The position numbers were made by a program, and so were the translations under genes. This document shows, in pieces, positions 30,762 to 57,719 of a stretch of 64,000 nucleotides of DNA. Below the pieces are notes generated by a model. That model searched no databases, was not told the origin of the DNA, and saw only the letters and a list, made by a program, of their open reading frames with translations. Origin of the DNA: Fontisphaera persica. Its GTDB lineage: Bacteria; Verrucomicrobiota; Verrucomicrobiia; Limisphaerales; Fontisphaeraceae. The stretch is from assembly GCF_024832785.1 (NCBI RefSeq), contig NZ_CP116615.1, forward strand, positions 1,860,001 through 1,924,000, read 5' to 3'. Every line of letters starts with the position of its first letter. Positions within the stretch are counted from its first letter, which is position 1.

Positions 30762-32129
30762 ATGAAAATCCTTTATCTGGACCTGTTAAGCGGGCTTAGT
30801 GGCGACATGTTCCTGGGGGGGCTGCTGGCCTTGGGGGTGGAACTGGAGGAACTGGAGCGGGAACTCGCCAAACTGGGACTGCAGGGGTACCATTTGCATG
30901 CCCATAACCGCTCCGCCTGGCAAATCCGGGGCATTAAATTGGAAGTGCACCTGGAGGACCATTCCCACCCCCATGAAGACCACCACCACGCCCCCCACGA
31001 GCACAGCCATGCTCATGTTCACTCTCACCATCATCCCCCTCACTCCTCACATCAGCATGGCCCGCATTCTGGCCACAATTCAGACCATGAGCATGAGGAA
31101 CGCACTTTTGCTCAAATTCGCGATTTGATTGAAGCCTCGCGGCTCTCCCCCTGGGTGCGGCAAACAGCCGTGGCAATTTTCCGCCGCCTGGCCGAGGCTG
31201 AGGGTAAAATCCACGGGATGGCGCCAGAAAAAGTGCATTTTCATGAAGTTGGGGCGGTGGATTCCATCGTGGACATTGTGGGCGGTTGTATCGGTTTGGA
31301 ACTGCTGGGACGCCCGCGCGTCCTTGCGTCCCCCGTGGTCGAAGGCCGCGGCTGGGTGGAATGTGCCCATGGCCGTTTTCCCGTGCCTGCGCCGGCGACG
31401 CTGGAAATCTTGGCAGCACGGGGAGTTCGGCTGGAGCAGTGCGAAGAGCCACACGAAATGCTTACACCCACCGGGGCGGCGATTCTGGCGGAGCTGGCCG
31501 AGCAATTTGGCCCCCTGCCCTCCATGAAAGTTAGGCGGGTGGGATACGGTCTGGGCACGCGGTCCTTGCAAACCCGCCCCAACTGTGTCCGCATGATTCT
31601 GGGTGAAGCCGCATCTACCAAGCCGGAGGCACCGGCGGATTGGGAAATGGACCAAGTGGCGGTGTTGGAGACCAATGTGGACGATTTGAACCCGGAAATT
31701 CTGGGGCATTTTGTGGAAAAAGCGCTCAACCAAGGGGCGCTGGATGTGTTTTACACGCCAGTCACCATGAAAAAAAACCGCCCGGGCGTGTTGTTGACCT
31801 TGTTGTGCCCTCCGGATGAAGCCGACGCTTTCATGGCGCTAATCATGCGCGAAACCTCGGCTTTTGGGGTAAGATGCCATCTGGCTTCGCGCCGTAAATT
31901 GCGCCGCAACTTCGCCGAAGTCGAAACACCTTGGGGCATGGTGCGGGTCAAGCAAGGATGGCTGAATGGCGAATTGCTGCACAATGCCCCGGAATATGAA
32001 AGCTGCCGGCAGTTGGCTGAAGAAAGAGGGGTGCCGGTGCGTCAAGTTTATACAAGCGCGTTGGCCGCAGGCCAGCAAGGGGCGCCCAGCCGGCGTCCCC
32101 GCAAAAAAACGGCGCGGAAAAAAGTTTAG
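30762..32129 (+). CDS. larC: Nickel-pincer cofactor nickel chelatase LarC
   Basis: LarC inserts nickel into the pincer nucleotide using CTP. The 455 residues are one uninterrupted chain; in lactobacilli the gene is split and needs a frameshift. The start (MKILYLDLLSGLSGDMFLGG) and the blocks VHFHEVGAVDSIVDIVG, HGRFPVPAPATLEIL, MLTPTGAAILAELAEQFG and ETNVDDLNPEILGHFVEKAL are diagnostic. A histidine tract from residue 67 to 111 holds 21 His in 45 residues and probably binds or stores nickel. It overlaps nothing but is only two bases from larB, so they are one operon. A basic tail (RRPRKKTARKKV) ends the protein. Confidence 0.93.
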   Translation: MKILYLDLLSGLSGDMFLGGLLALGVELEELERELAKLGLQGYHLHAHNRSAWQIRGIKLEVHLEDHSHPHEDHHHAPHEHSHAHVHSHHHPPHSSHQHGPHSGHNSDHEHEERTFAQIRDLIEASRLSPWVRQTAVAIFRRLAEAEGKIHGMAPEKVHFHEVGAVDSIVDIVGGCIGLELLGRPRVLASPVVEGRGWVECAHGRFPVPAPATLEILAARGVRLEQCEEPHEMLTPTGAAILAELAEQFGPLPSMKVRRVGYGLGTRSLQTRPNCVRMILGEAASTKPEAPADWEMDQVAVLETNVDDLNPEILGHFVEKALNQGALDVFYTPVTMKKNRPGVLLTLLCPPDEADAFMALIMRETSAFGVRCHLASRRKLRRNFAEVETPWGMVRVKQGWLNGELLHNAPEYESCRQLAEERGVPVRQVYTSALAAGQQGAPSRRPRKKTARKKV

Positions 32130-37312: not shown

Positions 37313-37350
37313 AAAAAAGAAAAAACGGCGGACGGTTTCCCGTCCGCCGT
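37313..37350 (-). terminator. Strong intrinsic terminator of the giant gene
   Basis: A perfect 11-base-pair stem (ACGGCGGACGG at 37325-37335 with CCGTCCGCCGT at 37340-37350) around a TTTC loop. On the minus strand it is followed by TTTTTCTTTTTT (complement of 37313-37324). It starts about 18 bases after the stop of the giant gene and shields the aminotransferase gene that follows. Confidence 0.9.
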
Positions 37351-37367: not shown

Positions 37368-40300
37368 TTACGGATTAATCCGCAAGGTGAAGGTCTGCGG
37401 GTCACTGGTATTGACTCCGCCGTTAAGCGTGCCGCCGCTGTCCACCGCCGTAATCGTGAGGGTCACGGCCACTGAAGCGGTGGTCGGCTTGGTGCGAATG
37501 ACCAGCCCGCCCGTCAGCGGGTTGATGGTTGGCGCTGACACGAACGGCGCAGGGTCGCTGGGCACCACCCTGAATTGCTGGAACCTCTGCGGCGCCAGCG
37601 GTGCCGGCGGATTCACTTCATTGGCCGGCCCGAGCAGCGCATTGGAGGCGGTGATGTCCACCACCACATTGGTGCTGGCATGACCGTTGGTGCTGGCGAT
37701 GTCGAGACTCGTGCGGGTCAGCACGAAGTTCGGCTTGTCATTCACCGGCTGGACAATCAGGCCCACTGTGCGGCTGGAGGTGTTGGTGCCGTCACTCAGG
37801 ACCACCGTCAGCATCGTCCGCCCGAAGGCATCCGCTGCCGGAGTCACGTTCAGGGTCACCTCCCACAGGTTGGTGCCCGGCACCAGCGCCTTGGTATAAT
37901 TCCAGTGCGCCGGATTGTTCGGGTCAACCAAGCCCGTGTTGGTGGACAACAGGCTCACCGTGAGACTGTTGATGTCGCTGTCAATATCCCGGACGTTGAA
38001 CCTCCAAGAGACGTTGCCGTCTTCATTGATGGTGCGAGCGTTGAGGGCCAGCGGATTGACGAAGACCGGCGCGTCATTGACATTAGTGATGCGGATGATG
38101 AACACCTGCGTCACCGTTGTATCCTGCTCGCCGTAAGGCCGCATATCCGGATTGTTGGTCTTCACGCGGCCGCTGTCCTTGGCCCACAACTCGACCAGGG
38201 TCTCGCCGAAGGCGTTGTTCGTCGGCGTGAAGAACAGGGTCAGGTTGGTGGTGGCAATGCGCGGCAGGCCGGCCTTGCCTTTGAACAGGGTCGGATCCGC
38301 CGGTTTGAAGAAGTAGCTCAGGCGCTGCTTCTCCTCGCCCCATGGACCGGCCCAGGCATAGGTGATGAAGTTCGTCCATTTCACCGGCACGTCTTCCGCT
38401 GCCTCCACCGTGCCCATGTTGCCCACCGCCGTCTGAATAACCGGCTGGTCATTCACCGGCAGGATGTTAATGCTCAACATGGCCCACTTGGAGGTCTTCA
38501 CGCCGTCAGAAACGTAGTACTTGATGAGGTCACGCCCGAACCGGTTGGTCAGCGGCGTGTACTTCAACACCGGGTTGGTGGTCAGGTTGAGATAACCCAG
38601 ACCATTGCTCGGGTCGAGCACGCCGTTGGTCGGCCACACCGTGATGTAGTAATCCAACGGGCCATAGCTGCCACCCAGCACGATGTTGGTCGGCATGTCC
38701 TCGACGAACACCAGTTTCTGGTTGTAGGCCTTCGGCGCCCAGTTGTTCAGCAGGATGGAGACATTCTGCGCTCCCCAGTTGGCCACCGCCAGATCAGGCA
38801 GTTTGTCGGCATTGTAATCGCCAGAGGCCAAGGAGACTGGCATGTCCTCCACATCGCTGATCATGCCCGGGTCGCCCCAGTAGAAGTTCAACACCGGCAA
38901 TGGCGGCACATTGGTCAGGCTCTTCATGCCGTTGCCATGCATCACCAGCACTGCATCGGCACCCATGAGCGCAATAGCCACGTCCACCAGTTTGTCGTTG
39001 TTGTAATCGCCAAAGGCCAGGTCACGCGGCTGGAAGCCCGCCGCCATGCCCACGCCAAAGCTGCCCGCCGGGGCGAAGCGCATGTCATTGCGGACTTTCG
39101 GATTGGAGGCATTGGTCCAGACCGTGAGGTCATCGGAACCCATATTGGCCACCAGGATATCCGGCAGTTTGTCGAGGTTGATGTCCACGACACCCACCGC
39201 CGCCGGCATGTCGCCTACTGGCAGATTAGTCACCACCGTCAGGGAGGTGCCCACCAGCGTGAGAATGCTGACGTTGTCATTCCCAGCGTTGGCCACCACC
39301 AAGTCCGGTTTATCCAGCGCCGTCGGCGTGCCGAGCAACCCAGCAGCAATCGCGCTGGGTGAGCGGCCCACCTGGACGATTTCAGTGGCATCAAAGACCG
39401 GCGCATAAACCATGCGCTGATGGTAGAAGACTTCCACCGTGCCGGGGTCCGTCCCGTTGCCGGCATCCACCACCACCAGATCCACGAACAAGTCCTTGTT
39501 CAAATCGGCGGCGATGAAGGCCACCGGGTTGTTGCCCGTGAGCGGGATATTGGTCACCAGCGTCAGAGCACCGGCGAGATCGTTCACCCCGTTGTTCTGC
39601 CAGATCTGCACCACACGGTCGCCCGCGCAGAGCACGGCCAAATCAGGGCGACGGTCATAGTTGAAGTCACCCAGAGTCAAGGCAATCGGGTTGTTGCCCA
39701 CCACCAGGTCAAACCGGTTGGTGAAATCACCCTTGCCGTTGCCCTTGAGGAGGGCCACCACGTTGCTGGCCGGGATGGCCACTGCCAGGTCAAGTTTGTT
39801 GTCCTTCACAAAGTCCGCCGTCACCACCGCACGCGGCGGCGCGCCCATGGCCAGCGGCAGGCTGTTAGTGAAGGCATACGGACGGGTGGCGGCGTCTTCC
39901 ACCATGGTCACCGGGACGTTGATAGTGAGGACTCCAGAAGCAATCCCATTTTCAATCGCCCGGTAGGTGAAAGTATCCAGACCGTTGAAGTTTGGATCGG
40001 GGATATAGATCAACTGGCCGCCCTGCACAAGGACCTGGCCGTGAGCCGGCCCGGACACAATCTCGTATGTGCGATTCCCAGTGTGCCCAGGCACGTTAAT
40101 GGTGGCCATGCTGTCCTCGTCAATTGCTGCCACGGTGGTCACAAGCTCGGCTGGAACCACCAGTTGGACTTGGAAGTCTTGGTAGGTGGCGATGGTGTAA
40201 TCATTGTTATTCACCGCCGACGAAGCCAGGCCCACGTTCAACAGGGTGGGCAGGCCGTCGTTGTACTGACCATTGGCCACCCAGGTTGTGCCGTCAAGAC

Positions 40301-43300
40301 TGTGGAAGGCATAGAACATGCCATTGGAGCGCATAAGTTTCACCCAGACATTCGGATACGGCAACGGCGGCACACCCGTGCGGCCACCGGTAGGATACGT
40401 ACGGAGCGCTTCTGTTGAGCCACCGCCGAACCCATCGCGGTAGGTCATCTGGATCGCGTTTTCACCACGGTTCAAACCGGTGTCGAAAGCCGGCGTGGCC
40501 AGAATGGCCCGCTGGCGCTCATGAGCGGCCAGCCCCGGACGCGCCATCAGACCCGCCTTGGTCCAGTTGCCTGCATTGCGCAGGCCAAGGATGCGGACAG
40601 TAGCCACGAAATCACCGTTGATTTCGCGATAAGTGAAGTTCATGGCGTCATAGCTGCCCCAAATATCGGAACCGGCCACCCAAGCCTGGATGGTGTTTTC
40701 GTCACCCATGACATTCCAACCATAGGTCCCCGGCCAGTTGGCACTCGGGTTGGTGGCACTGCCAGCCACCATTTCGGAAGAATTGGCATGTTTCAACCCG
40801 CGCGGCGTCACGGTCACTGCCGACGGCGTCATGTAATTACCATTCAAGTCAGCCAAACCGCTCACCTGGACCTCGAACGGCCCATTGATGGCAGACGACA
40901 AGGTTAGCTGAATCGTATTGGTCTCACCGCGATTCAATCGGGCATCTACAACCGTAACGGCTGCAGGCTGTTCAAGCAACTCAACCTCGCCAATCTGCAT
41001 CGAGTTGGCCGCAGGAGCGTTGGCCACATTCGGGAAGGTAACCCGATAGTAACCATACGCGGTGTTATTGGGTACAGGCACCAACTGCGACCAACCGCGG
41101 GACTGGAATGCCGCCAGCGGCGAATTGGTAATCACCGTCCAGCTTGAACCGTCATTGGACCCTTCGAGGATGAAGTCAATCGGGTCACGCTCGGGCGCGT
41201 CGTTCGCCGAGGTGAAGCGCACGGCCTTCACCACCTTGGCGCCTGCGCCGAGCTGCACGATGAAGCCGGTGTTGAGCTTGCCGAAGTTCAGGTACTTCGT
41301 GCGCAACAAGCCGTCCACCGCCAAGCCCGGATGCTCATTCCCCGGCCAGGTGCCGCCGAAGCCGGTCACCACATCACCAGCCCCGGTCACCGGCCGCATA
41401 TCCACCGGCGAACCCAGCGTGTTAATCTGAATTTGGGCCAGGTTGGTCAATGTACCGATGGCCACGGCATCATTGAACACCAAGCCTACCACTTTGCCGT
41501 TGAGGCTGTGACCGCGCTGCAACACCAGCGGATTGCTTTCCGTGGGGTTCACGTTAATCACAGCAGTTTGGGACACTTGCGCGCCGTCGCTGCGCACAAT
41601 CAAGCAGCGATACTGAACGCCATTGTCCAGGAAGGACAGCGCCGGGGTGGTATAGGAATCACTTCGCGCTCCCAGGATATTCACGCCATTGCGCTGCCAT
41701 TGGTACAGAGTGTAGAACGGTGAACCTGAAGCAGCGACCGACAGAGTAACCGTCGCGCCGACATTGGTGGTCACGCTCTGCGGCTGGGTGGTAAGGGTGA
41801 TTGCTGGATTGATGAATCCATATTGATAAACCATCGTGCGTGGGATGCGCACCGCTGCGCCGCCACTCAGCACTGAGGCCCCCGTGGTGTAACCCACTTC
41901 CAAGTAGTCACCACCACCACCTTCCTTGACCATGGCTTCCCAGTAATACGGGAATCCGGCAATCAAGAATTTAACCGCCTGGTCATTGGGCAGGGTATTA
42001 GCCCCGTCATTCCATCCGTCGTTGCAGCAGCCGCGGAAGGCTACAAACTGACGGCTGCTGTAATCCATGGTCGTGCCCAAAAAGGCACCCGCATCATCGT
42101 CGTTGCGCAGCCAGAACTTGTAGTTGCCGGTCGTAGGCGGCACAAAGACGCCCGACATCAAGGCGCCATAATTGTCCATGCTGGGGCGATAATTGGCATC
42201 GCCCAAGATGCTGCGGAAACTGGGGTTGTTGGGGAAGTTCACGTTGTTCGTCAACGCCGGCAGGGTCGTGCCGCCGAAGCCGTCATAACGCCGCAGGTAA
42301 ATGCCGTCTGCGTAAACCGCATTAGTATAAGTCGCAATGTTGGGGCTGACAGCATTCGCATTTTCACTAGCATCACGCACATTATTCAGTGTCAGAGTAT
42401 AGACCGCGCCCGGCTCCTGCGGCGTGGTGGTCAAGATGGCAGTAATGGCATCCGGCATGAGGCTTGCCCCAAGCACCGGCACCACATTGTTGAGCGCATC
42501 GGTCAGGGTGTAGGTCCCCGCCGCCACCGAGGCAGCATCCATGCGCTCGCTGAAGCGCACCATGATTTGCTGGTAATTCACCGAGCCGCCAATGTAAGCC
42601 ACGGTAGGCGGGGTGGTATCCGCCAAAACCGTCACGGTGGCCACTGCACTGGTGGCCGTGGTGCCATCCACGAAGGTGGCGACGCAGCGATACTGGGCAC
42701 CCTGATCGGTGGATGGACGCATAATCTTGGTGTAGGACGCATTGGTTGCACCCGCTACATTCTGCCAGGCAGTACCATCAAACCTCTGCCACTGATAGGT
42801 GGCCGGCTGCGCATATGGATGCACTGCTGCCACCACTGTTCCTGGATTGCCGTCCGAAACCGTGATATTGACGGGTTGCAAACCAAAGTATTTGTAGTCC
42901 GGCACCAATGCCCAGGCGATGAACTGATTGGTGAAATTGCCGCGGTTGTCCGTGTCGCGGTATAATCCTGGAGCTGTCTGATAATTGGCGTTATTGCGGA
43001 AGGCCAAACTCACGTAGTCGCCGCCACCGCCTTCCTGCATCAGCAGTTCGAAGTAGTACGGCACGCCGCCCACCAGCGACACAGGGCCGCTCCAGTTGCC
43101 CGGCTCATTGCAAGCCGCGCAACCACCCTCCAACCGGATTACGGTGGCTGCATTGGCCGGATGGGCCGGATGGACCGGCGACAGGCTCATGAGCAGCCAG
43201 GCGGAGTCATCCGCCTCGGCGCGGAAGTTGTACACTGCAGTTTCCGGCGGGATGAACCAGCCAATCATGCGGATACTGTAGTAGTCACCGTAATTCTTCG

Positions 43301-46300
43301 GCGAATAAGCGGTATCCATCATCGTCACCGAATCCGGGAAGTACGGGAACTTCGAGTTGTTGGTAATGATGGTGAAGTTGTTGGCCGCGCTTGAATTGCC
43401 GGTGAAGACCTGCCGTTGCACAAAACCGGGCTGCGTGTGCCAGCCGGTAAAGGTCAGGTTGGTGGTCTCCAACAGGTTAAAGCCCTGGTCGTACACATTT
43501 TCCACTCGCAAGGTGTACTGTTGATTGGCATTCAGGCTTACGCCACTGAAGGTAAGCAGGAAGCCGGTAGTGTCACCCAAATCCACGACTTCCACTGGAT
43601 TGTAACTGTTGGCACCATCCATCAGCGTATACGCGCTGGTGCTGTCCCACCCATACGGAACAGCCTCCCCAAACCGCACCAACACCTTGTTCGGCACCGG
43701 GGTGGCGCTAACGCTTTCCACCGTCGGCGGCACCGAGTCCACGAGCACGGTCAGGGTGGCAACGGCGCTCACTCGCTGCGCCATGTTACCGCCTGGATTA
43801 TATACCAGGCAGCGGAATTGCGTACCATTATCAGCCAACGTGAGCACAGGTGTCTGATATGTGGAGGAAACGGCGCCAGGAATCATCAACCAAGTGCCTC
43901 CGCGCAAAACTTGCCATTGATAACCCACCTGGCTGGGGTTGCTGCCCTGGGCCACGCAGGTGAAGGTGGCGCGGGCATTTTCATAGCCAGTCCTATCTTG
44001 AGGCTGCGTGGTGATGGTCACGGTGGTTGGACCCGCAGTCACTGGGAACAGACCCCAGCCAATCATGCCAGGGCTGCCATTGCCCGGTTGCGAGCCCTCG
44101 GGGGCCATGGCCACAGCAATATGGTCACCTCCGCCGCCTTCCTTCATGATGGCCTCCGCATAATAGAGCTTGCCCCCTTCCAAGGCGATGGCCTCTGAGC
44201 GGGCGCTGGGGTAGGTGCCACCCCCGCGCGAAGTTTGCCATACATCATAAGCACGATAATCTGTCCATCCATACAGGTTGGCGCGCATGGTCTTGTTGGC
44301 CGGATTGTCATCGGTGCTGAGGTAGAACTCCGAATCATCATCGCTGGCCATGTAGAACCGATAGTTGCCATTGGTGGGCGGGATGATGAAAGCGGACAGC
44401 CGGCGCCCATAGTTATCCATGCCTTCATCCGGCACATCAAAACCGCCACGATACCCCACTGTATCCGGCTGGTTATTAATGTATTTCGAGTTGTTCTTCA
44501 AATCGTTGATGCCGGAACCGCCAATTCCCGTGAATGCCTCATCCTTCACCTTGCCGGGTATCAGCATGAAACTGGTGAAGTTGGCGGTGGAATTGGGCGC
44601 AATGGCTCCACTCAACGGCGAGAAGTCATCCACATTGTTCACCGTCAAGGTGTACTGGGTGGCGATGTCCTGAAGTGAGGTGTCCAAAATCACCACCGAG
44701 CCGTCGCCCGTGCGAGCGGCACTCAAGACGGTGATTCCACCACTGATCGCGTAGTTGGCAGGGTTTTCCGCAGTGGTAGGCTCCACCGGCTCGCTGAAGA
44801 CCACCCGCACCTTGCGGAAGCCTTGATATGCTTCGGCCGACAGGAGCACAGGGGCAATGGTGTCTTCCTGCACCGTCAACGTTGCCACTGAGCTAATTGC
44901 CTGGGCCAGGGATCCTCCGAGGTTCACTGCCACACAACGATATTGCTTGCCATTATCCGACATGGACAATACCGGCGTCTGGTAGCTGGCAGCGTTGGCG
45001 CCCGGAATATTGGTCCAAGCTCCCACCCCACCACTTTGCCACTGGTAAACGATGGGGCCGGTGGGATTGGCTCCAGTTGCGGCAACGGTAAAGGTCACCC
45101 GCAGACCGGCGTATTGATTGGTATTCTGGGGGTGCTGCGTGAAGGCAACGGTCGTCGGACCGCCCGGCTGGGCTCCGTAAGCGATTTCCTGCCCTTGAAT
45201 CGGGCCCGTCGGCAAATCATCTCCGGTGTTATAACCCACAGAAACGTGGCCGCCGCCGGTGCCATCACGGAAGAGCACTTCCGCGGAATAGGCCATGCCG
45301 CGATACAACTGAACCGGAGCCGAACGGGCATTCGGGTCAGCACCACCTTCACCCCCTTGGAACTTGTTGTAGTTGCGGAAGCCCGTCCATCCGCTCTGCC
45401 GCGTCAGCAGCACGCGATTGGCCGGATTGTCATCCGGGCTGAGCCAGAACTCATTGTCATCGTCCCCCACCGCGTAGAACCGATAGCTGCCAGAGGCGGC
45501 CGGCACAATCCACCCTGTAATAATGGCTTGGAAATTATCACGCCCGTCATCCGGGTATTCAAACCACGGAACGAAGTTGGCCGCCGCCGGCGGGTTGTTC
45601 GCTGCATAGATTTTCAAATCAGCCAGGCTCCGATCGTTATCATACCGTTTGCTCAACACATAACCCGGGATGGAAATCGGGGTCGTGAAATTGAGCGGGG
45701 TGGGCACCATGTCGGCAATGTTCTGCACTGTTACCGTGTAGCTGGTCACCGGGTCTTGCATCGTGGTGTACAACAGCACGTCGGTCCCATTCGGCATCAC
45801 GGTGGCCGAAATGACATTCACCCCGTTGTTGACCGTGTAGTTCGCCGGATTCTGGGCATTGGCCAAGTCGCCCGCCAAGGCTTGGTTGAACGAAATCAGG
45901 ATGCCGCGCAAGCTGACATTGCCGCGCGCGCTCAAGGCCTGCATGGGGCCCACCGTGCGCGTAAAGATGGGGCTGCGCAAATCATCATTAGAAAGGTTGG
46001 AGAACATGTTATTACCGTCATTGTCCTGCAAATCAATGCCCACCGTCGGGTCAAATTCCACGAAATAGGGGTGACCGATTGCGATGTTATAATTCACATA
46101 ATTCAAAATGATACGCGTCCGGTTGTTGGCCAATGAGGCTGTGGTAAAGGCAGCCGGAAGATTGCCCGGCGCACCAATGACGGCCACCTGACTTGGCGGG
46201 GCGTTGGAGAAAAGATAGCAATAATTGGGAATCTGGGCCACCGCATCGTCCACGCTTTGCAGGTTGGCCAATGGCTTGTTCAAATCAATGAACAGCACAC

Positions 46301-47366
46301 CGTAACCCGGATTGCTGACGGCGGCGATGCGCGGGCCTTTGGTGGCGCGCACTTCGGCGTTGGCGCTGGTGGCCACCGTGCCGTTGTAGGTGTTGCTCAC
46401 CACGCAAGTCAGGATATTGGTCGAATCAGAAGCCCCCGGTGCAGTAAAGGTATAAGTGGTGTTGGTCGCGTTCGGAATGTCCACCCCGTTCAATTTCCAC
46501 TGATAAACCAGATAGACCGGCCAGCCCATCGCCACGGTGCGCAAGGTCACGCTGCCGCCGGGCGAGGTCACGCTCACCGGTGCCGGTTGCACGGTAATAA
46601 TCACTGGATCCTCGGGGTTGTCGTAAATCTGGGTGGTGGCGGTCTCATTGCCAGTTTCCCCGGCGCAACCATGACGGCTGCCCGCGATGCCTACATAAAT
46701 GGTATTGGGGAACGGGTCGTTGTCGTTGCCGCCCACGGTGCTGGGCCAGTTGTAAGTGTCCTGGGTTTGCGGCCCCACCCAGTTCACGCCGTCCATGCTG
46801 GCGTACCCCCGAAACACGCTGCCCACCCGTTGCAGGCGCACCCATTGATAGGTCGGATGATTGCCGTCCCCCGGCACAATGCGGTCCTCATGCTGACCGC
46901 CATTGCCGGCTTCGCCCGCCCTCCATGTGCGGTACATGAGCGACAAGTCACCCACGCCCTGGCTTTGGCCGCAATTGCTGGTCGGGTTGCCATCATTCCC
47001 CACAATTGGACCTGATGGCGTCGCCTTGGAGAACACCATCTTGCTGGAAACATCCAGCGAAGGACGCGCCATGATGCCCGCCTTGGGCCAGCGGGCGGTC
47101 ACCTCCATGGAGGCGACGCGTATTTTGATGTCGAAGTCCCCAGTTACCTGCAGATAAAGAAAGGTGAATTCATCCTGCATGTCCCAGATGTCGTTGCCCG
47201 CGGCATAGAGCGTGATGTGATTGGGGGCATTGCTGACCACTGATCCCACAGGGTTACCGCCCACGTGGGCCAGCGTGAATGGCACCTGTGCCACCTGAGC
47301 CATGGCCGCCCAACCGGTGAATACCGCGGCAGCCGCCAGTGTTTTGAGCATTTTAGGGTACGTCAT
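37368..47366 (-). CDS. Giant secreted modular protein (3332 residues)
   Basis: Signal peptide (about 1-23, ending AMAQ). Modules from the N-terminus: a concanavalin/DUF1349-like domain (around 50-250, AGNDIWDMQDEFTFLYLQV), an Ig-like domain, then four tandem units of ~374 residues, each an SbsA/Ig-like strand bundle, a PA14-like domain (GSYRFYAVGDDDNEF type) and an Ig-like domain (YQWQ...YRC type). Next are an F5/8-like discoidin domain (~1990-2135), a second concanavalin/DUF1349-like domain (~2200-2400, AGSDIWGSYDAMNFTYREI), a cadherin-like repeat, an FG-GAP propeller with seven DxNxDxxxD-type repeats (~2510-2870) and tandem cadherin-like repeats (VNDQP, VNDAP, VNDKP). No enzyme domain, transmembrane tail, LPxTG or PEP-CTERM ending was seen. 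It is probably a secreted or surface-bound adhesin or glycan-binding protein. Start: ATG at 47366 with AAGGA six bases before. Confidence 0.85.
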   Translation of the reverse strand: MTYPKMLKTLAAAAVFTGWAAMAQVAQVPFTLAHVGGNPVGSVVSNAPNHITLYAAGNDIWDMQDEFTFLYLQVTGDFDIKIRVASMEVTARWPKAGIMARPSLDVSSKMVFSKATPSGPIVGNDGNPTSNCGQSQGVGDLSLMYRTWRAGEAGNGGQHEDRIVPGDGNHPTYQWVRLQRVGSVFRGYASMDGVNWVGPQTQDTYNWPSTVGGNDNDPFPNTIYVGIAGSRHGCAGETGNETATTQIYDNPEDPVIITVQPAPVSVTSPGGSVTLRTVAMGWPVYLVYQWKLNGVDIPNATNTTYTFTAPGASDSTNILTCVVSNTYNGTVATSANAEVRATKGPRIAAVSNPGYGVLFIDLNKPLANLQSVDDAVAQIPNYCYLFSNAPPSQVAVIGAPGNLPAAFTTASLANNRTRIILNYVNYNIAIGHPYFVEFDPTVGIDLQDNDGNNMFSNLSNDDLRSPIFTRTVGPMQALSARGNVSLRGILISFNQALAGDLANAQNPANYTVNNGVNVISATVMPNGTDVLLYTTMQDPVTSYTVTVQNIADMVPTPLNFTTPISIPGYVLSKRYDNDRSLADLKIYAANNPPAAANFVPWFEYPDDGRDNFQAIITGWIVPAASGSYRFYAVGDDDNEFWLSPDDNPANRVLLTRQSGWTGFRNYNKFQGGEGGADPNARSAPVQLYRGMAYSAEVLFRDGTGGGHVSVGYNTGDDLPTGPIQGQEIAYGAQPGGPTTVAFTQHPQNTNQYAGLRVTFTVAATGANPTGPIVYQWQSGGVGAWTNIPGANAASYQTPVLSMSDNGKQYRCVAVNLGGSLAQAISSVATLTVQEDTIAPVLLSAEAYQGFRKVRVVFSEPVEPTTAENPANYAISGGITVLSAARTGDGSVVILDTSLQDIATQYTLTVNNVDDFSPLSGAIAPNSTANFTSFMLIPGKVKDEAFTGIGGSGINDLKNNSKYINNQPDTVGYRGGFDVPDEGMDNYGRRLSAFIIPPTNGNYRFYMASDDDSEFYLSTDDNPANKTMRANLYGWTDYRAYDVWQTSRGGGTYPSARSEAIALEGGKLYYAEAIMKEGGGGDHIAVAMAPEGSQPGNGSPGMIGWGLFPVTAGPTTVTITTQPQDRTGYENARATFTCVAQGSNPSQVGYQWQVLRGGTWLMIPGAVSSTYQTPVLTLADNGTQFRCLVYNPGGNMAQRVSAVATLTVLVDSVPPTVESVSATPVPNKVLVRFGEAVPYGWDSTSAYTLMDGANSYNPVEVVDLGDTTGFLLTFSGVSLNANQQYTLRVENVYDQGFNLLETTNLTFTGWHTQPGFVQRQVFTGNSSAANNFTIITNNSKFPYFPDSVTMMDTAYSPKNYGDYYSIRMIGWFIPPETAVYNFRAEADDSAWLLMSLSPVHPAHPANAATVIRLEGGCAACNEPGNWSGPVSLVGGVPYYFELLMQEGGGGDYVSLAFRNNANYQTAPGLYRDTDNRGNFTNQFIAWALVPDYKYFGLQPVNITVSDGNPGTVVAAVHPYAQPATYQWQRFDGTAWQNVAGATNASYTKIMRPSTDQGAQYRCVATFVDGTTATSAVATVTVLADTTPPTVAYIGGSVNYQQIMVRFSERMDAASVAAGTYTLTDALNNVVPVLGASLMPDAITAILTTTPQEPGAVYTLTLNNVRDASENANAVSPNIATYTNAVYADGIYLRRYDGFGGTTLPALTNNVNFPNNPSFRSILGDANYRPSMDNYGALMSGVFVPPTTGNYKFWLRNDDDAGAFLGTTMDYSSRQFVAFRGCCNDGWNDGANTLPNDQAVKFLIAGFPYYWEAMVKEGGGGDYLEVGYTTGASVLSGGAAVRIPRTMVYQYGFINPAITLTTQPQSVTTNVGATVTLSVAASGSPFYTLYQWQRNGVNILGARSDSYTTPALSFLDNGVQYRCLIVRSDGAQVSQTAVINVNPTESNPLVLQRGHSLNGKVVGLVFNDAVAIGTLTNLAQIQINTLGSPVDMRPVTGAGDVVTGFGGTWPGNEHPGLAVDGLLRTKYLNFGKLNTGFIVQLGAGAKVVKAVRFTSANDAPERDPIDFILEGSNDGSSWTVITNSPLAAFQSRGWSQLVPVPNNTAYGYYRVTFPNVANAPAANSMQIGEVELLEQPAAVTVVDARLNRGETNTIQLTLSSAINGPFEVQVSGLADLNGNYMTPSAVTVTPRGLKHANSSEMVAGSATNPSANWPGTYGWNVMGDENTIQAWVAGSDIWGSYDAMNFTYREINGDFVATVRILGLRNAGNWTKAGLMARPGLAAHERQRAILATPAFDTGLNRGENAIQMTYRDGFGGGSTEALRTYPTGGRTGVPPLPYPNVWVKLMRSNGMFYAFHSLDGTTWVANGQYNDGLPTLLNVGLASSAVNNNDYTIATYQDFQVQLVVPAELVTTVAAIDEDSMATINVPGHTGNRTYEIVSGPAHGQVLVQGGQLIYIPDPNFNGLDTFTYRAIENGIASGVLTINVPVTMVEDAATRPYAFTNSLPLAMGAPPRAVVTADFVKDNKLDLAVAIPASNVVALLKGNGKGDFTNRFDLVVGNNPIALTLGDFNYDRRPDLAVLCAGDRVVQIWQNNGVNDLAGALTLVTNIPLTGNNPVAFIAADLNKDLFVDLVVVDAGNGTDPGTVEVFYHQRMVYAPVFDATEIVQVGRSPSAIAAGLLGTPTALDKPDLVVANAGNDNVSILTLVGTSLTVVTNLPVGDMPAAVGVVDINLDKLPDILVANMGSDDLTVWTNASNPKVRNDMRFAPAGSFGVGMAAGFQPRDLAFGDYNNDKLVDVAIALMGADAVLVMHGNGMKSLTNVPPLPVLNFYWGDPGMISDVEDMPVSLASGDYNADKLPDLAVANWGAQNVSILLNNWAPKAYNQKLVFVEDMPTNIVLGGSYGPLDYYITVWPTNGVLDPSNGLGYLNLTTNPVLKYTPLTNRFGRDLIKYYVSDGVKTSKWAMLSINILPVNDQPVIQTAVGNMGTVEAAEDVPVKWTNFITYAWAGPWGEEKQRLSYFFKPADPTLFKGKAGLPRIATTNLTLFFTPTNNAFGETLVELWAKDSGRVKTNNPDMRPYGEQDTTVTQVFIIRITNVNDAPVFVNPLALNARTINEDGNVSWRFNVRDIDSDINSLTVSLLSTNTGLVDPNNPAHWNYTKALVPGTNLWEVTLNVTPAADAFGRTMLTVVLSDGTNTSSRTVGLIVQPVNDKPNFVLTRTSLDIASTNGHASTNVVVDITASNALLGPANEVNPPAPLAPQRFQQFRVVPSDPAPFVSAPTINPLTGGLVIRTKPTTASVAVTLTITAVDSGGTLNGGVNTSDPQTFTLRINP
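38750..39840 (-). repeat. FG-GAP/VCBS propeller, seven repeats
   Basis: Inside the giant protein (about residues 2509-2872), seven units carry an aspartate-rich calcium loop followed by a short strand: DFVKDNKLDLAV, DFNYDRRPDLAV, DLNKDLFVDLVV, TALDKPDLVV, DINLDKLPDILV, DYNNDKLVDVAI, DYNADKLPDLAV. The fourth is shortened. Seven such units are what a seven-blade propeller needs. Confidence 0.8.
41540..45960 (-). repeat. Four-copy ~1.1 kb super-repeat (SbsA/Ig + PA14-like + Ig)
   Basis: The PA14-like tyrosine of the Y-R-F-Y motif falls at residues 628, 1002, 1379 and 1749 of the giant protein, a spacing of 374, 377 and 370 residues. Each copy has the same order: SbsA/Ig-like strands (FSEPVEPTT, FGEAVPYGW, FSERMDAAS type), PA14-like, KEGGGGD-type loop, then Ig-like with a YRC cysteine. 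Copies are diverged at DNA level, so they are old duplications. Confidence 0.8.
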
Positions 47367-47664
47367 AGGAGTTCCTTGGATGGGGGACTTGACCAACGTT
47401 AAAATCTTGTGCGCCGACACGACACCACAATTGTTTTTCATGGCAAAAAACTTCGCCAACATACGGTGTATTTGGGTTGTAATCAGGTTACCGGCGCATA
47501 GAAGTAGCGTATTAGCCCTTGGGGCGCAAGACTTTTTTTCAAAAATTTTTCCTGTCCGTCACCGGTCCGCTGGCCGGGTTTGCATTCCTTCCCAAAGCGT
47601 GTTCCCAGCTTCGTTGAAAGAAGGATTGAGCCGGAGGCTAAAACCGGCTAAGCTGGCTGGCGTG
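47367..47664. promoter_or_regulatory. Divergent intergenic region of the giant gene and DUF4197 operon
   Basis: This 298-base gap separates the giant minus-strand gene from the DUF4197-SpoIIM-RDD-nagA-cytidylyltransferase operon on the plus strand and should hold both promoters. A ribosome site AAGGA for the giant gene is the complement of 47373-47377, six bases from its ATG. I see no clear -35/-10 pair. The stretch 47520-47560 is AT-rich with a run of T (GACTTTTTTTC) and could be part of a promoter or of a weak terminator-like element. Confidence 0.45.
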
Positions 47665-50383: not shown

Positions 50384-51573
50384 AAAACCCCCGGCTTTTC
50401 CCAACCCGCGGCAGTGTGGTGGCACGGCACTACCGCCGGGGCGTGTGCTGGCGGCTTTCGTGGGAAAACGGCCTGATTACTGAAAGCGAATGCGTCAAAA
50501 AGGGGGGACATCCCGAACTTTACCTTGCGCCAGCCTTGTTTGACCCGCAGGTCAACGGTTACGCAGGCATAGACTTCCAGCAGGACGGGTTAAGTGTTGA
50601 GGCGCTGTTGGAAGCTGCCCGCCGTCTGCGACGGGACGGTTGTGCCCGTTTTCTGTTGACGTTGATTACGGATGCCTGGCCCGCCCTGGTCCGGCGTCTG
50701 CGGCATTGCGTGGCGCTGCGGCGCAGCCAGCCCGAGCTGCAGGCAGCCATTGCCGGCTGGCATATCGAAGGCCCTTTTCTCTCAGATAAGCCCGGCTTTT
50801 GCGGGGCGCATCATCCCGCGTTGATGCTGGACCCCTCGCCGGAGATGCTGGCCGAGCTGCGCCGCCTGACTGAGCCTGACCCCCTGGTGGTGACGCTGGC
50901 CCCGGAACGCGCCGGAAGTTTGACCGCCATTCGCAAAGCCGCAGGAATGGGCATCCGCGTCAGTCTGGGGCATACCGATGCCAGTGCGCGCCTGCTCGAC
51001 GCCGCGCTGGCCGCAGGCGCGGTGGGATTTACCCATTTGGCCAACGGCTGCCCCCGGCAACTGGACCGGCACGACAACATTCTTTGGCGGGCGCTTTCCA
51101 GCTCCCTGGCGCGTCCCGCCCCGCCAGGGGTGGAGCGTTACGTGGGTTTGATTGCGGATGGCGTGCATGTCAGCCCGGCGCTGTTCCGCCTGTTGCACCA
51201 ATGGCTGCCGCCCGGGCGGATTTATTACACCACCGACGCCATGGCTGCGGCGGCCGCTCCGCCGGGCAAATACACATTAGGCCAATTGCAGGTGGAGGTG
51301 GGGGAGGACCTGGTAGTGCGCCTGCCCGGCACTCCTTATTTTGCTGGCTCGGCCCTGCGGCCCATTCTGGCCGTGCAGCGAGCCGCACACATGCTGCAAG
51401 CGCCCTGGGCCGAAGCCTGGTTGCGTGCCTCGCGGGTCCCTGCGGCATTCGCCGGCTTGAAAGCGGATTTAATCCCCGGACAACCGGCGAATTTCTGCCT
51501 GGTGCGATTGACCCACGAAGGCATTCCGCAAATCGAGCAAACATATTTCCACGGCAAACCTTGTTCCCCATGA
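50380..51573 (+). CDS. nagA: N-acetylglucosamine-6-phosphate deacetylase
   Basis: Deacetylates GlcNAc-6-phosphate to glucosamine-6-phosphate, for use or recycling of amino sugars. The 397-residue amidohydrolase shows DPQVNGYAGIDFQ (the QxNG start of NagA), the metal Glu in WHIEGPFLSDKPGFCGAH, His in SLGHTDASARLL, HLANGCPRQLDRHDN, catalytic Asp in YYTTDAMAAAA, and FAGSALRPI. It sits between the RDD gene and the cytidylyltransferase with four-base overlaps both sides. Its pairing with a sugar cytidylyltransferase, and not with nagB, suggests supply of an activated amino sugar for surface glycans; that is inference. Confidence 0.9.
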   Translation: MKNPRLFPTRGSVVARHYRRGVCWRLSWENGLITESECVKKGGHPELYLAPALFDPQVNGYAGIDFQQDGLSVEALLEAARRLRRDGCARFLLTLITDAWPALVRRLRHCVALRRSQPELQAAIAGWHIEGPFLSDKPGFCGAHHPALMLDPSPEMLAELRRLTEPDPLVVTLAPERAGSLTAIRKAAGMGIRVSLGHTDASARLLDAALAAGAVGFTHLANGCPRQLDRHDNILWRALSSSLARPAPPGVERYVGLIADGVHVSPALFRLLHQWLPPGRIYYTTDAMAAAAAPPGKYTLGQLQVEVGEDLVVRLPGTPYFAGSALRPILAVQRAAHMLQAPWAEAWLRASRVPAAFAGLKADLIPGQPANFCLVRLTHEGIPQIEQTYFHGKPCSP

Positions 51574-52307
51574 AAGTGGTGGCCATCATTCAAGCACGCA
51601 TGGGCAGCACCCGGCTGCCCGGAAAAGTCCTGCGGACGTTATGTGGCCAACCGGTGCTGCGCCATGTCTGCAACCGGGTACGTCTTGCCCGGCGGCTGGA
51701 GAGTCTGTGGGTGGCCACCTCCACCCGCGCCGCAGATGATGCCATCGCCCAGGCCTGTGCAGCATGGAATGTCCCTTGTTACCGCGGCAGCGAAGACGAC
51801 GTGCTTGCGCGCTTTCATGGCGCGGCCGCCGCAGCGGGGGCGGAGGTGGTCGTGCGCATCACCGCCGATTGTCCGTTGTTTGATGGCTGGCTGTTGGACG
51901 ATATGCTAAGAGTCTTCCTGGAGGCCAATACCCCGGAAATACGGGTGGATTATCTGAGCAACGTCCTGGAGCGCCGCTACCCACGGGGTTTGGATGCCGA
52001 GATTTTCACTTTTGCGGCGCTTGACCAGGCCCACCGTGAGGCTCACCTGCCCCGGGAGCGGGAGCATGTGACGCCCTATCTCTACCAGCACCCTGAAAAA
52101 TTCCGGCTCCATTCTTACCGCGCCCCCGAAGACTGGTCACAGTATCGCTGGACGCTGGACACCCCCGAAGACTGGGCATTGATTGAAGCGATTTATCAGG
52201 CCTTATATCGGACGGAACAACCCTTTACTACCCGCCAGGTTCTGGAATGGCTTCAAGCCCGCCCTGACCTGGCACAGCTTAACGCGTCCGTCCGGCAGAA
52301 AGAGTGA
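51570..52307 (+). CDS. SpsF-type cytidylyltransferase
   Basis: The 245-residue nucleotidyltransferase starts KVVAIIQARMGSTRLPGKVL, the signature of the SpsF/acylneuraminate cytidylyltransferase family, and continues with YRGSEDDVLARF, VVRITADCPLFDG, and SNVLERRYPRGLDAEIFTFAALDQAHREA (in parts), all typical. Such enzymes activate nonulosonic or related sugars with CTP. The ATG at 51570 overlaps the nagA stop (ATGA). Downstream, after 166 bases, lies a sugar cluster with a WbpG amidotransferase trio and a methylase of the pseudaminic-acid-associated group. No NeuB-like synthase is seen in the window, so the sugar is undetermined. Confidence 0.85.
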   Translation: MKVVAIIQARMGSTRLPGKVLRTLCGQPVLRHVCNRVRLARRLESLWVATSTRAADDAIAQACAAWNVPCYRGSEDDVLARFHGAAAAAGAEVVVRITADCPLFDGWLLDDMLRVFLEANTPEIRVDYLSNVLERRYPRGLDAEIFTFAALDQAHREAHLPREREHVTPYLYQHPEKFRLHSYRAPEDWSQYRWTLDTPEDWALIEAIYQALYRTEQPFTTRQVLEWLQARPDLAQLNASVRQKE

Positions 52308-52351
52308 GGCCTTTTCAGTTTCGCCGAACCCACTTCGCCGCAAGTCAGGCC

Positions 52352-52416
52352 CCGCCCTCTAAAAATTTCATGGCGCCATGAAGCGGGCTTTGGTTTAGTA
52401 CTGCGCCAGAGGGCGG
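52352..52416. repeat. Nested inverted repeats in intergenic DNA
   Basis: CCGCCCTCT (52352-52360) and its exact complement AGAGGGCGG (52408-52416) enclose a second, perfect 16-base palindrome TTCATGGCGCCATGAA (52367-52382). The structure lies between the cytidylyltransferase stop and the methylase start. It could be a regulator site, an RNA fold or a remnant of a mobile repeat. Confidence 0.6.
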
Positions 52417-52473
52417 CAATTTGCCAGCACGGTGTGGCAATCATGAAGCCGCCAGGCGAGAGACAACATCATC

Positions 52474-53112
52474 ATGTCCGGGTATCAAACACCCCAGGAA
52501 GCCTTTTGGGCGGGCGCCTTTGGCAGCGATTATACACAACGCAACCAGGGCGAACGGCTGGTGGCCAGCAACGCCAGCCTGTTTCAGCGGTTGCTGGCCA
52601 AAGCCAGCCCACCGGCGAGCATATTGGAACTGGGCGCCAACATCGGGTTGAATCTGGTGGCCTTGCGGCAACTTCTGCCCGAGGCGCATCTGGCTGCCGT
52701 GGAAATCAATCCCGAGGCGGTCTCCCACCTGCGGCGCCTGCCCGAGGTGGAGGTATTCCACGAGTCCCTCCTGGAGTTTCAACCCCCGCGAGCCTATGAT
52801 TTGGTCTTCACCAAAGGCGTCCTGATTCATATTGCTCCCGAGCAACTGCCCAAGGTGTATGATTTGATGTACCGGGCCAGCCGCCGTTATGTGGCGCTGG
52901 CAGAATACTACAATCCGACCCCGGTGAGCGTGCCCTATCGCGGTCACCTGGATCGCCTGTTCAAGCGGGATTTTGCCGGGGAATTGCTGGACCGGTTTCC
53001 TGACTTGCGCCTGGTGGATTATGGATTTGTTTATCGCCGGGACCCGGCGCATCCACAGGATGATTTAACCTGGTTCCTGCTGGAGAAAACCGCGGGGAAC
53101 ACCGCGATTTAA
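52474..53112 (+). CDS. SAM methyltransferase, pseudaminic-acid-biosynthesis-associated type
   Basis: The 212-residue class I methyltransferase starts GYQTPQEAFWAGAFGSDYTQRN, a lead found in the group called pseudaminic acid biosynthesis-associated methylases. The SAM site is ILELGANIGLNLVALRQLLP, followed by AHLAAVEINPEAVSHL, and YDLVFTKGVLIHIAPEQL. The next gene is a WbpG-type N-acetyl sugar amidotransferase, which in other bacteria makes acetamidino sugars. The start follows a 166-base gap with nested inverted repeats and so begins a new transcription unit. The methyl acceptor is not known. Confidence 0.82.
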   Translation: MSGYQTPQEAFWAGAFGSDYTQRNQGERLVASNASLFQRLLAKASPPASILELGANIGLNLVALRQLLPEAHLAAVEINPEAVSHLRRLPEVEVFHESLLEFQPPRAYDLVFTKGVLIHIAPEQLPKVYDLMYRASRRYVALAEYYNPTPVSVPYRGHLDRLFKRDFAGELLDRFPDLRLVDYGFVYRRDPAHPQDDLTWFLLEKTAGNTAI

Positions 53113-53130
53113 TAATGGTTCAGAGAGTTT

Positions 53131-54282
53131 ATGTTGAGGTACTGCAAACGTTGTGTCATGCCGGACACCAAGCCGGACTTGTTTCTGGATGAAGAAGGCG
53201 TCTGCAACGCCTGCCGCAGCTTCGAGCGTCGCAAGGCCATTGACTGGGACGCCCGGAAAAAAGAGCTCCTGCAAATCCTGGACCGCTATCGCTCGAAAGA
53301 CGGGCGGAACTGGGATTGCCTCATCCCCGTCAGTGGCGGCAAGGACAGCACCTTCCAGGTGGTGCGCATGAAGCAGCTTGGTCTGAACCCGCTCTGCGTC
53401 ACCGCCACCACCTGCGACCTCTCGGACATCGGCCGTAAAAACATCCAGAACCTGAAAAACCAGGGGGTGGACTATGTGGAGTTCTCCCCCAATCCAGTCG
53501 TGCGGCGCAAACTCAACCGCATCGGTTTGATGCAGGTGGGCGATATTTCGTGGCCGGAGCATGTGGGCATTTTCACCATCCCGGTGCGGGTGGCCGTCCA
53601 GATGAACGTGCCCCTCATCATCTGGGGGGAAAACTCCCAAAACGAATACGGCGGGCCAGCCTCTGCAGCCGAAAACAACACGCTGGACCGCCGCTGGCTG
53701 GAGGAATTTGGCGGACTGCTGGGGCTGCGCGTATCGGATTTAATCGGATTGGAAGGTTTGCAAGCCCGCGACCTGATTCCCTACACCTATCCCTCGGATG
53801 AAGACCTGAAGCGCGTGGGTGTCACTGGTTTGTTCCTGGGCTATTACCTGCCCTGGGACGGTTATTCCAATGCCCTTCTCTCGCAGGCCCATGGCTTCAC
53901 CACCTACCACACGACTGTGGAAGGCAGCCTGGTGAATTACGAGAACCTGGACAACCACCAGACGGGCATCCACGATTATTTCAAGTTCCTGAAGTTTGGT
54001 TTTGGCCGGGCCACGGATCTGGCCTGTCTGCACGTGCGCCGCGGGCGCATCTCCCGCCAGGATGCCATCGAACTGGTGCGGATGCACGACGGCAAGTTCC
54101 CCTGGAGCTACCTCGGCAAGCCGCTGGAAAAAATCCTCGAACCGCTGGACCTGACGGTGGAGGAGTTCATCAAGATTTGCGACCGTTTCACCAACAAAAA
54201 ACTCTTCCTCAAGGACGCCCATGGGAATCTAATCAAGGATAAACACGGCAACCTGACCAAGATTAATTACGACAACCCTTGA
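53131..54282 (+). CDS. N-acetyl sugar amidotransferase (WbpG/PseA-like)
   Basis: Converts an acetamido sugar to an acetamidino sugar using ammonia supplied by a HisH-HisF pair. The 383 residues have a zinc-binding N-terminus (Cys5, Cys8, Cys25, Cys28), the PP-loop SGGKDST (68-74) for ATP, and WGENSQNEYGGPAS, LFLGYYLPWDGYSNALL, and GSLVNYENLDNHQTGIHDYFKFLKFG (in parts), all WbpG/PseA-family blocks. The hisH2 and hisF2 genes follow with overlaps, matching the wbpG-hisH2-hisF2 arrangement known from Pseudomonas aeruginosa LPS. It lies 18 bases after the methylase. Confidence 0.92.
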   Translation: MLRYCKRCVMPDTKPDLFLDEEGVCNACRSFERRKAIDWDARKKELLQILDRYRSKDGRNWDCLIPVSGGKDSTFQVVRMKQLGLNPLCVTATTCDLSDIGRKNIQNLKNQGVDYVEFSPNPVVRRKLNRIGLMQVGDISWPEHVGIFTIPVRVAVQMNVPLIIWGENSQNEYGGPASAAENNTLDRRWLEEFGGLLGLRVSDLIGLEGLQARDLIPYTYPSDEDLKRVGVTGLFLGYYLPWDGYSNALLSQAHGFTTYHTTVEGSLVNYENLDNHQTGIHDYFKFLKFGFGRATDLACLHVRRGRISRQDAIELVRMHDGKFPWSYLGKPLEKILEPLDLTVEEFIKICDRFTNKKLFLKDAHGNLIKDKHGNLTKINYDNP

Positions 54283-54908
54283 AGGCGCTGGTCATCAATG
54301 TCGGCATGGGCAACCTCGGCAGCGTCCGCCGGGCCTTGGAGGAATGCGGCGCCGAGGTCCGGCTCTCCACCCGCCCAGAAGAGCTGGACTGGGCCGACCG
54401 CATCATCCTGCCGGGCGTGGGCGCTTTTGCCACCGGCATGGGCCGTTTGCAGGAAGGCGGCTGGGTGGCGCCCCTGCGCCAGGCGCTGGCCAATCCGCGT
54501 GTGCGCCTGCTCGGTATTTGCCTGGGCATGCAACTGCTGGCCGACAGCGGAGAGGAGGGCGGCCTGACTTCAGGTCTGGGATTTATTCCCGGCCACGTCA
54601 CCCGCTTAAAAGTCCAACCGCCACGCGAACGGCTGCCGCATGTCGGCTGGAATGCAGTCCACCCCGCTCGCCCGCATTGGTTATGGGAAGGCATTCCCCA
54701 CGGCACGGACTTTTATTTCGTGCATAGTTACCATCTGGCTGCTGCCCAGGACGAGACGCGGCTGGCCACCACACCTTATGCGGGCGGGTTTGTTTCCGCT
54801 GTGGGCACACCCAACATCTTGGGGGTTCAGTTTCATCCAGAAAAAAGCGGCCGGCCGGGCTTTCAGTTATTAAGGAATTTTTTGGCCTTCCCCTCCGAAA
54901 ATGCTTAA
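54279..54908 (+). CDS. hisH2: HisH-like glutamine amidotransferase (HisH2)
   Basis: Releases ammonia from glutamine for the sugar amidotransferase. The 209-residue class I glutaminase has the Cys81 nucleophile (GICLGMQLL) and the His185/Glu187 pair (GVQFHPEKSG), so the triad is intact. The TTG start at 54279 overlaps the WbpG stop (TTGA). The rest of the histidine pathway is absent from the window, and the gene is flanked by WbpG and HisF2; this argues for a sugar-modification role and not for histidine synthesis. The C-terminus overlaps hisF2 by eight bases. Confidence 0.9.
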   Translation: MKALVINVGMGNLGSVRRALEECGAEVRLSTRPEELDWADRIILPGVGAFATGMGRLQEGGWVAPLRQALANPRVRLLGICLGMQLLADSGEEGGLTSGLGFIPGHVTRLKVQPPRERLPHVGWNAVHPARPHWLWEGIPHGTDFYFVHSYHLAAAQDETRLATTPYAGGFVSAVGTPNILGVQFHPEKSGRPGFQLLRNFLAFPSENA

Positions 54909-55668: not shown

Positions 55669-55679
55669 CCCCTTGGCTT

Positions 55680-57062: not shown

Positions 57063-57073
57063 ATAAAGACCCT

Positions 57074-57712: not shown

Positions 57713-57719
57713 AAAAGTC

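Follow-up and report, generated by a model that had tools for sequence, protein, structure and literature searches.

What would a bacterium do with an exported protein of 3,332 residues in which the same three-domain block recurs four times? The question is raised by a minus-strand gene of Fontisphaera persica, in the window analysed here (the whole stretch of 64,000 nucleotides at positions 1,860,001 to 1,924,000 of NZ_CP116615.1). We read its product as an adhesin or extracellular-matrix protein that is exported by the Sec route and binds glycans multivalently and in a calcium-dependent way, with a probability of roughly 0.6. All of its parts are known; their arrangement is new.

The open frame running from 47366 to 37368 encodes 3,332 residues plus a stop codon, exactly the length given in the original prediction of a secreted protein, and lies on the minus strand. 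By eye, AAGGA precedes the ATG at 47366, and the first 23 residues read as a signal peptide, MTYPKMLKTLAAAAVFTGWAAMA followed by Q (end AMA, then Q). An alternative in-frame ATG at 47462, 32 residues earlier, would extend the product to 3,364 residues, and the sister species also has a 3,364-residue frame; we prefer the later start as the probable one because the signal peptide follows it. The whole protein contains 14 cysteines in its 3,332 residues. The gene and its borders are as follows.

37368..47366, minus strand: whole gene, secreted mosaic protein of 3,332 residues (open frame; same-genus counterpart)
47298..47366, minus strand: signal peptide, residues 1–23 (by eye)
37325..37350, minus strand: intrinsic terminator, 11-bp stem with nine G-C pairs and a T tail (sequence)

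The stem of this terminator starts 17 nt past the stop codon, so that the strong terminator expected after the gene is indeed there. The gene might also be highly expressed, as had been proposed from the terminator; promoter-like sites are at chance level (5 found versus 4.9 expected) and therefore give that proposal no support.

The gene is genuine and under purifying selection. A genome of the same genus carries a full-length counterpart; across 3,328 aligned residues it shows 87% identity and six internal gap columns, and the comparison yields a dN/dS of 0.089 (dN 0.088, dS 0.99). The same aminotransferase follows the gene in both species (sequence starts matched by eye), and the divergent genes preceding it are of similar length in the two. 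This counterpart was the only other full-length match among 39 genomes, own included, queried with the first 2,955 residues and with up to seven candidates scored per genome; 23 of the 39 gave some match at 1e-20. The protein is known from only two genomes, two of the three sampled in its family, and a plasmid search returned no near match to it.

The four-fold block occupies the middle of the protein, and each copy carries a pair of consecutive Asp residues considered below.

44847..45926, minus strand: unit 1 (S-layer-type Ig, PA14, Ig), residues 481–840 (pairwise alignment, Pfam, calcium motif)
43728..44846, minus strand: unit 2, residues 841–1213 (pairwise alignment, Pfam, model, structure matches)
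42597..43727, minus strand: unit 3, residues 1214–1590 (pairwise alignment, Pfam, calcium motif)
41532..42596, minus strand: unit 4, residues 1591–1945 (pairwise alignment, Pfam, calcium motif)
45459..45464, minus strand: Asp635-Asp636, presumed calcium motif of unit 1 (alignment)
44337..44342, minus strand: Asp1009-Asp1010, presumed calcium motif of unit 2 (alignment)
43206..43211, minus strand: Asp1386-Asp1387, presumed calcium motif of unit 3 (alignment)
42096..42101, minus strand: Asp1756-Asp1757, presumed calcium motif of unit 4 (alignment)

The Tyr of a Y-x-F motif recurs at residues 628, 1002, 1379 and 1749 (spacing 374, 377 and 370), precisely where it had been placed. Local alignment of the four units in pairs, using 375 residues of each, gives scores of 260–678 with 107–147 identities per pair, against best scores of 57–80 in 200 shuffles per pair, which upholds the proposed four-fold super-repeat. 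Pfam, run on ten pieces of the protein, matched PA14 and Ig_3 in each unit, in part below threshold (Ig_3 never reaches its cut-off in a single piece); Big_5 was matched in units 2 and 4. On the whole protein PF07691 reaches 70.3 bits over four stretches, against a cut-off of 24 bits; on single units, 1 and 3 pass with 24.4 and 26.0, and 2 and 4 fail with 18.1 and 18.9.

Unit 2 is the sole unit modelled, with the four window units alone as input. Its model has a mean pLDDT of 73.5 (47–62 for the other four models) and a pTM of 0.67, with pLDDT below 50 in loops 196–211 and 255–260. Comparison by VIA-align relates model residues 1–94 to the S-layer domains of SbsC/SbsB (Z 14–15, 1.4 Å over 86–90 residues, 22% identity) and residues ~94–268 to PA14 domains (Z 10–14), including those of a clostridial anti-sigma protein, RTX adhesins, Flo1/Flo5, Epa1/6/9 and Cea1 and, about equally (Z 10–14), those of GH3 and GH31 enzymes and of anthrax protective antigen. 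Foldseek also listed SbsB, Epa, Flo, a beta-glucosidase and 6qdi for this model; its top rows were Ig chains with low TM-scores (about 0.2). A 27-row profile of the unit matches Ig chains at positions ~264–357 and, in its PA14 part, 6qdi, Epa1, Epa6, Flo5 and Flo1 (best 60 of 129 matches), so the last third of the unit appears to be Ig mainly on the strength of its sequence rather than of the model. Collectively, these comparisons assign the unit to an S-layer-type Ig, PA14 and Ig fold family, in the order originally named (SbsA/Ig-like, PA14-like, Ig-like). The units align with one another and the unit 2 model follows that order, which argues against unrelated folds.

A PA14 fold alone does not imply sugar binding, because the unit 2 model matches the anti-sigma, GH3/GH31 and protective antigen domains about equally, and the protective antigen PA14 is described in PMC3325183 as having no sugar site. 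In PA14 lectins, two consecutive Asp residues joined by a cis peptide are reported to hold the sugar-contacting calcium (PMC8092209, PMC6650083). Such a pair is present in all four units and is invariant across 27 aligned units. When the set was enlarged to 86 rows covering both motifs, which reduce to 70 distinct cores, Asp-Asp was retained in 66 (the rest being Ala-Asp twice, Asp-Glu and Asp-Asn), and Glu or Asp directly preceded the Gly-rich motif in 69. HMMER places the pair in register with 6qdi, Epa1 and Epa9, and one residue off in an ungapped match to Flo1; it aligns the Glu before the Gly-rich motif with the second Asn of the Epa1 Asn-Asn pair, an Asn that we take to be a calcium ligand. 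The presumed third ligand is thus Glu or Asp here, versus the Asn reported for yeast PA14 lectins (PMC6218569). A calcium site in the units is likely, because the Asp-Asp pair is kept and in register with PA14 lectins and because the Asp-Asp-Glu trio is as modelled for TraA. From this we infer that the units may bind sugars, and the occurrence of the pair in all four favours, at the level of sequence, the proposal that the protein could engage several glycans at once.

Beside one of these motifs the two species of the genus diverge strongly.

45330..45428, minus strand: loop beside the unit 1 calcium motif, residues ~647–679, unlike that of the sister (two-species windows)

In 30-codon windows along the protein (n=3,298), DNA identity between the two species averages 0.80 (sd 0.07). 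It is lowest, at 0.44, in the window of residues 650–679; all 20 windows below 0.55 cluster around that one, the next separate minima being at 0.56. The latter lie at 40878–40967 (residues 2134–2163), the end of the discoidin-like domain, and at 40068–40157 (residues 2404–2433), the start of a cadherin-like domain. Window 650–679 is 14–43 residues past Asp635-Asp636, and in Cea1 the ligand-touching loop L3 is reported 35–38 residues past the Asp-Asp pair (PMC6218569); judged by spacing, not structure, the divergent stretch of unit 1 probably holds an L3-type loop.

The sister's unit 1 loop is instead similar to unit 2, with DNA identities of 0.83, 0.77 and 0.61 to unit 2 of F. persica in the windows at 635, 647 and 658, with 0.33–0.74 in the other windows of the unit, and of 0.75, 0.69 and 0.61 to the sister's own unit 2 in the same three windows. 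The near-random identity between the unit 1 loops of the two species points to probable replacement, not point mutation, in the F. persica lineage; among the units compared, no donor of the loop was found. The sister's loop is at least as close to unit 2 of F. persica as to the sister's own unit 2, which speaks against a conversion of unit 1 by unit 2 within the sister's lineage. The likeness of unit 1 and unit 2 loops may stem from an exchange before the species split, or may have been retained since the two units were duplicated, with later change in the F. persica lineage alone.

Outside the units, the protein carries the following domains.

46611..47291, minus strand: likely concanavalin-type domain 1, residues 26–252 (weak DUF1349 match; resembles domain 2)
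40965..41369, minus strand: discoidin-like domain (F5/8 type C), residues ~2000–2134 (Pfam, sub-threshold; stretch conserved in relatives)
40140..40784, minus strand: likely concanavalin-type domain 2, residues 2195–2409 (resembles domain 1)
39951..40136, minus strand: cadherin-like domain (Big_9), residues 2411–2472 (Pfam)
38652..39899, minus strand: FG-GAP repeats (propeller), residues ~2490–2905, with five DxNxDxxxD-type loops (Pfam)
37371..38651, minus strand: cadherin-like and terminal domain, residues 2906–3332 (Pfam; shared C-terminal matches)

This agrees with the module order anticipated from the sequence, cadherin-like and propeller parts included, and the 17 Pfam families matched across the whole protein at E up to 1 include no enzyme family, in keeping with the earlier statement that no enzyme is visible. 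The concanavalin-type pair had been described as similar, and the two do resemble each other in pairwise alignment; their fold can be called likely and no more, because DUF1349 is matched only below threshold and the model (pLDDT 43) is too poor for a fold search. DUF1349 and GH43_C2 are likewise matched below cut-off in a relative, and no relative of known structure turned up with a profile of the pair. The discoidin assignment is sub-threshold in this protein; of six relatives of the stretch concerned, one exceeds the threshold.

Residues 2490–3332 (~840 residues, comprising propeller, cadherin-like and terminal domain) have counterparts at the C-terminus of other proteins. Alignment of this base reaches the final residue of a protein of 3,466 residues in the own genome, of the sister species' copy of that protein, of three proteins from genome G004 and of one from G013. 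With a 1,502-residue protein and the sister species' copy of it, the alignment breaks off 20 query residues early, with 19 residues left there. Another four proteins, three from G004 and one from G334, themselves come to an end where the query is at residue 717 of the 843 in the base. Against this pattern, one G004 protein has an internal base block followed by 284 residues, and a 1,145-residue protein has 237 residues after one base copy and 13 after another. In the 3,466-residue sister protein (L044), the base is preceded by a CotH kinase domain, lamin-tail domains in six stretches, CBM_4_9 and a PA14 that narrowly misses its cut-off, from which we infer a common fitting that would carry different heads. 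The original prediction of a protein with no anchor stands for the known tags searched, but its last ~840 residues are the end of other proteins too.

Several routes of export and retention were weighed at this end of the protein. A conserved C-terminal sorting signal was rejected: the end resembles a general cadherin-like (tandem-95) repeat, which is why we claim a shared base and not a signal, though several proteins align to the stop. NCBIfam returned neither a C-terminal sorting tag family nor a MYXO-CTERM-type match in the protein, and there is no hydrophobic C-terminal tail (past residue 3200, the best mean over 19 residues is 1.09); for that reason we go no further than proposing that the base might attach the protein to the cell surface. 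Type IX export, which had been suggested as worth searching for, was dropped, as Por_Secre_tail (TIGR04183) is absent from the protein (E up to 1) and from the genome (control matched 2 of 14); SprA had no match in the own genome, and its control likewise matched nowhere. PEP-CTERM/exosortase export was dropped as well, with no tag family and no hydrophobic tail despite four exosortase matches in the own genome. Pfam hits of the protein include no SLH and, at E up to 1, no RTX repeat family; together with the signal peptide (by eye), the latter is at odds with type I export of the RTX kind. Separately, several relatives built of the same modules (loci L043, L045, L047, L048, L056, L061 and others) have another ending, a short stretch like ‘FYRV...P’ at the stop (by eye), which may serve this group for sorting or capping.

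A model of the unit (362 positions) was searched in 116 genomes of the order, own included, with up to 17 candidates scored in each, and matched in 66 of them at 1e-55, so that the search for the module in Limisphaerales proposed at the outset was positive. Near-full matches (position ≤10 to ≥350) occur in at least 37 of the 116, the rest being partial, often PA14 plus Ig. With the base found in five of the 116 order genomes at 1e-25, own included, it is far rarer than the unit. Across a phylum sample of 288 genomes (own included, up to seven candidates scored in each), 42 had a unit match at 1e-30. Among the matches listed, those outside the own genome were mostly PA14 alone or PA14 plus Ig, and none spanned position ≤20 to ≥340, the nearest covering 43–356. 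On this basis the full unit looks typical of the order.

Tandem arrangement was scored as neighbouring matches of at least 250 positions each, 300–450 residues apart (a preset range), in loci that represent best matches rather than a random sample. Twenty proteins qualified, this one and 19 others in 19 genomes including the own, with a spacing of 302–412 and a median of 373 (26 frames, six of which are repeat counts of the same places); the predicted spacing is therefore found in homologues. A 3,968-residue frame of the own genome has four units spaced by 367, 378 and 379. A tree built from 27 units joins unit 1 to unit 2 with firm support (100/99) and gives units 3 and 4 no firm link to this pair or to each other. 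Each unit is nearest its sister-species counterpart, so the four-unit array predates both species. A common in-place origin is evident for units 1 and 2 only; with units 3 and 4 outside the firm group, the tree gives no support to a single in-place four-fold duplication.

Modules of this protein are also matched in 18 other open frames of the own genome (48 matches at 0.001). Outside the window, at G000:C1 ~958,900–1,021,556 (L106–L109), lies a 20,890-residue open frame with a PA14 match, of which 20,518 residues were read stop-free and whose end has RTX-like Gly/Asp-rich repeats by eye. Frames of 5,790, 6,810 and 5,573 residues, at G000:C1:83711, 2020568 and 2685325, match PA14 or modules of the protein. 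The genome is rich in giant secreted-type proteins.

Twenty chosen frames of the neighbourhood were scanned for families, four of them giving no family match at 1e-5. Upstream, on the other strand, DUF4197, SpoIIM and RDD genes are followed by a surface-glycan-type group at 51084–58814 (cytidylyltransferase, methyltransferase, glutamine amidotransferase plus HisF-like pair, glycosyltransferase). Downstream lie the aminotransferase, a metallo-beta-lactamase-type gene and, later, a sulfatase. None of these genes reveals the function of the protein. Elsewhere in the window, the five named relatives of a gene at 30762–32126 comprise four Verrucomicrobia-type records, among them a Pedosphaera and one labelled Akkermansia, and one of Actinomycetota at 39%.

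In the mechanism that we favour, four PA14 lectin-like heads would stand in series, spaced by S-layer-type Ig and Ig domains, and two likely concanavalin-type domains and one discoidin-like domain would add further binding. The propeller-cadherin base, reused by sister proteins with other heads, would serve as a common attachment or export part. Many weak sites combined could then produce firm binding to polysaccharide, whether of the own matrix, of other cells or of plant or algal origin, and the protein may in this way bind cells.

The resemblance of the first third of the unit 2 model to SbsC/SbsB (Z 14–15), together with the surface-glycan-type group ~4–11 kb upstream on the other strand, would also suit a structural surface-layer or sheath protein, that is, an Ig/cadherin-like lattice or fibre in which PA14 only holds to the own surface polysaccharide. 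We consider this rather unlikely: Pfam matches no SLH in the protein, the glycan genes lie at a distance from it, and in place of one dominant gene 18 other own-genome frames share the modules. Glycan-degrading systems commonly contain domains of the discoidin, concanavalin and PA14 types. The presence of such domains here, a sulfatase gene 8 kb away and the own-genome sister protein with CBM_4_9 are consistent with substrate capture, in which plant or algal glycan would be held near the cell for separate enzymes. However, the 20 scanned frames (four without a family at 1e-5) contain no glycoside hydrolase, lyase or importer family, and such a role seems improbable. Highly improbable, in our view, is self or kin recognition in the manner of TraA, where like heads on two cells would meet and the PA14 loops would set the partners. 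It draws on the PA14 of TraA, with a modelled Asp-Asp-Glu calcium site whose trio is the same here (PMC3325183), and on the one loop beside a calcium motif that is wholly different between sister species while the rest is conserved; yet two species are compared and one of four loops has changed, and the protein has few cysteines (14) and no MYXO-CTERM-type match.

The reading as a multivalent glycan-binding adhesin or matrix protein matters beyond this locus, as the S-layer-Ig/PA14/Ig unit is widespread in one bacterial order, often in tandem, and the group abounds in giant secreted-type proteins. One unit of ~365 residues offers a single testable fragment for asking which ligands are bound, and the unit 1 loop may be a natural example of how a lectin head exchanges the loop with which it binds, all within one gene. 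A bolder and, to us, doubtful extension would see the protein as a rack of interchangeable lectin heads whose specificity evolves by replacing the calcium-side loop, from a neighbouring repeat or another unit, on a constant scaffold, and would see the propeller-cadherin base as the mount of different racks. One event in two species cannot establish such a habit of loop replacement.

In the open literature we found no description of a tandem unit of this order, of the reuse of such a C-terminal base or of the loop replacement. The closest bacterial likeness is to the PA14 heads of RTX adhesins (MpIBP/MpPA14; 6m8m, presumably the MhLap RTX adhesin domain), which are alike in fold (Z 12–13), in the Asp-Asp pair and in belonging to a giant exported chain with beta-sandwich spacers; the present protein differs in its signal peptide in place of type I secretion, in having four heads in series and in lacking an RTX repeat family. 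The yeast flocculins and epithelial adhesins Flo1/Flo5, Epa1/Epa6/Epa9 and Cea1 are alike in fold (Z 10–13) and in profile matches, but have Asn as third ligand (PMC6218569) and a GPI anchor, whereas four heads stand in series here. TraA shares secretion, a PA14 domain and the Asp-Asp-Glu trio (PMC3325183); in contrast, the present protein has four PA14 units and is without cysteine-rich repeats or MYXO-CTERM. SbsB/SbsC, finally, resemble the first domain of the modelled unit (Z 14–15, 22% identity), whereas here no SLH-type anchor was found and that domain alternates with PA14 and Ig.
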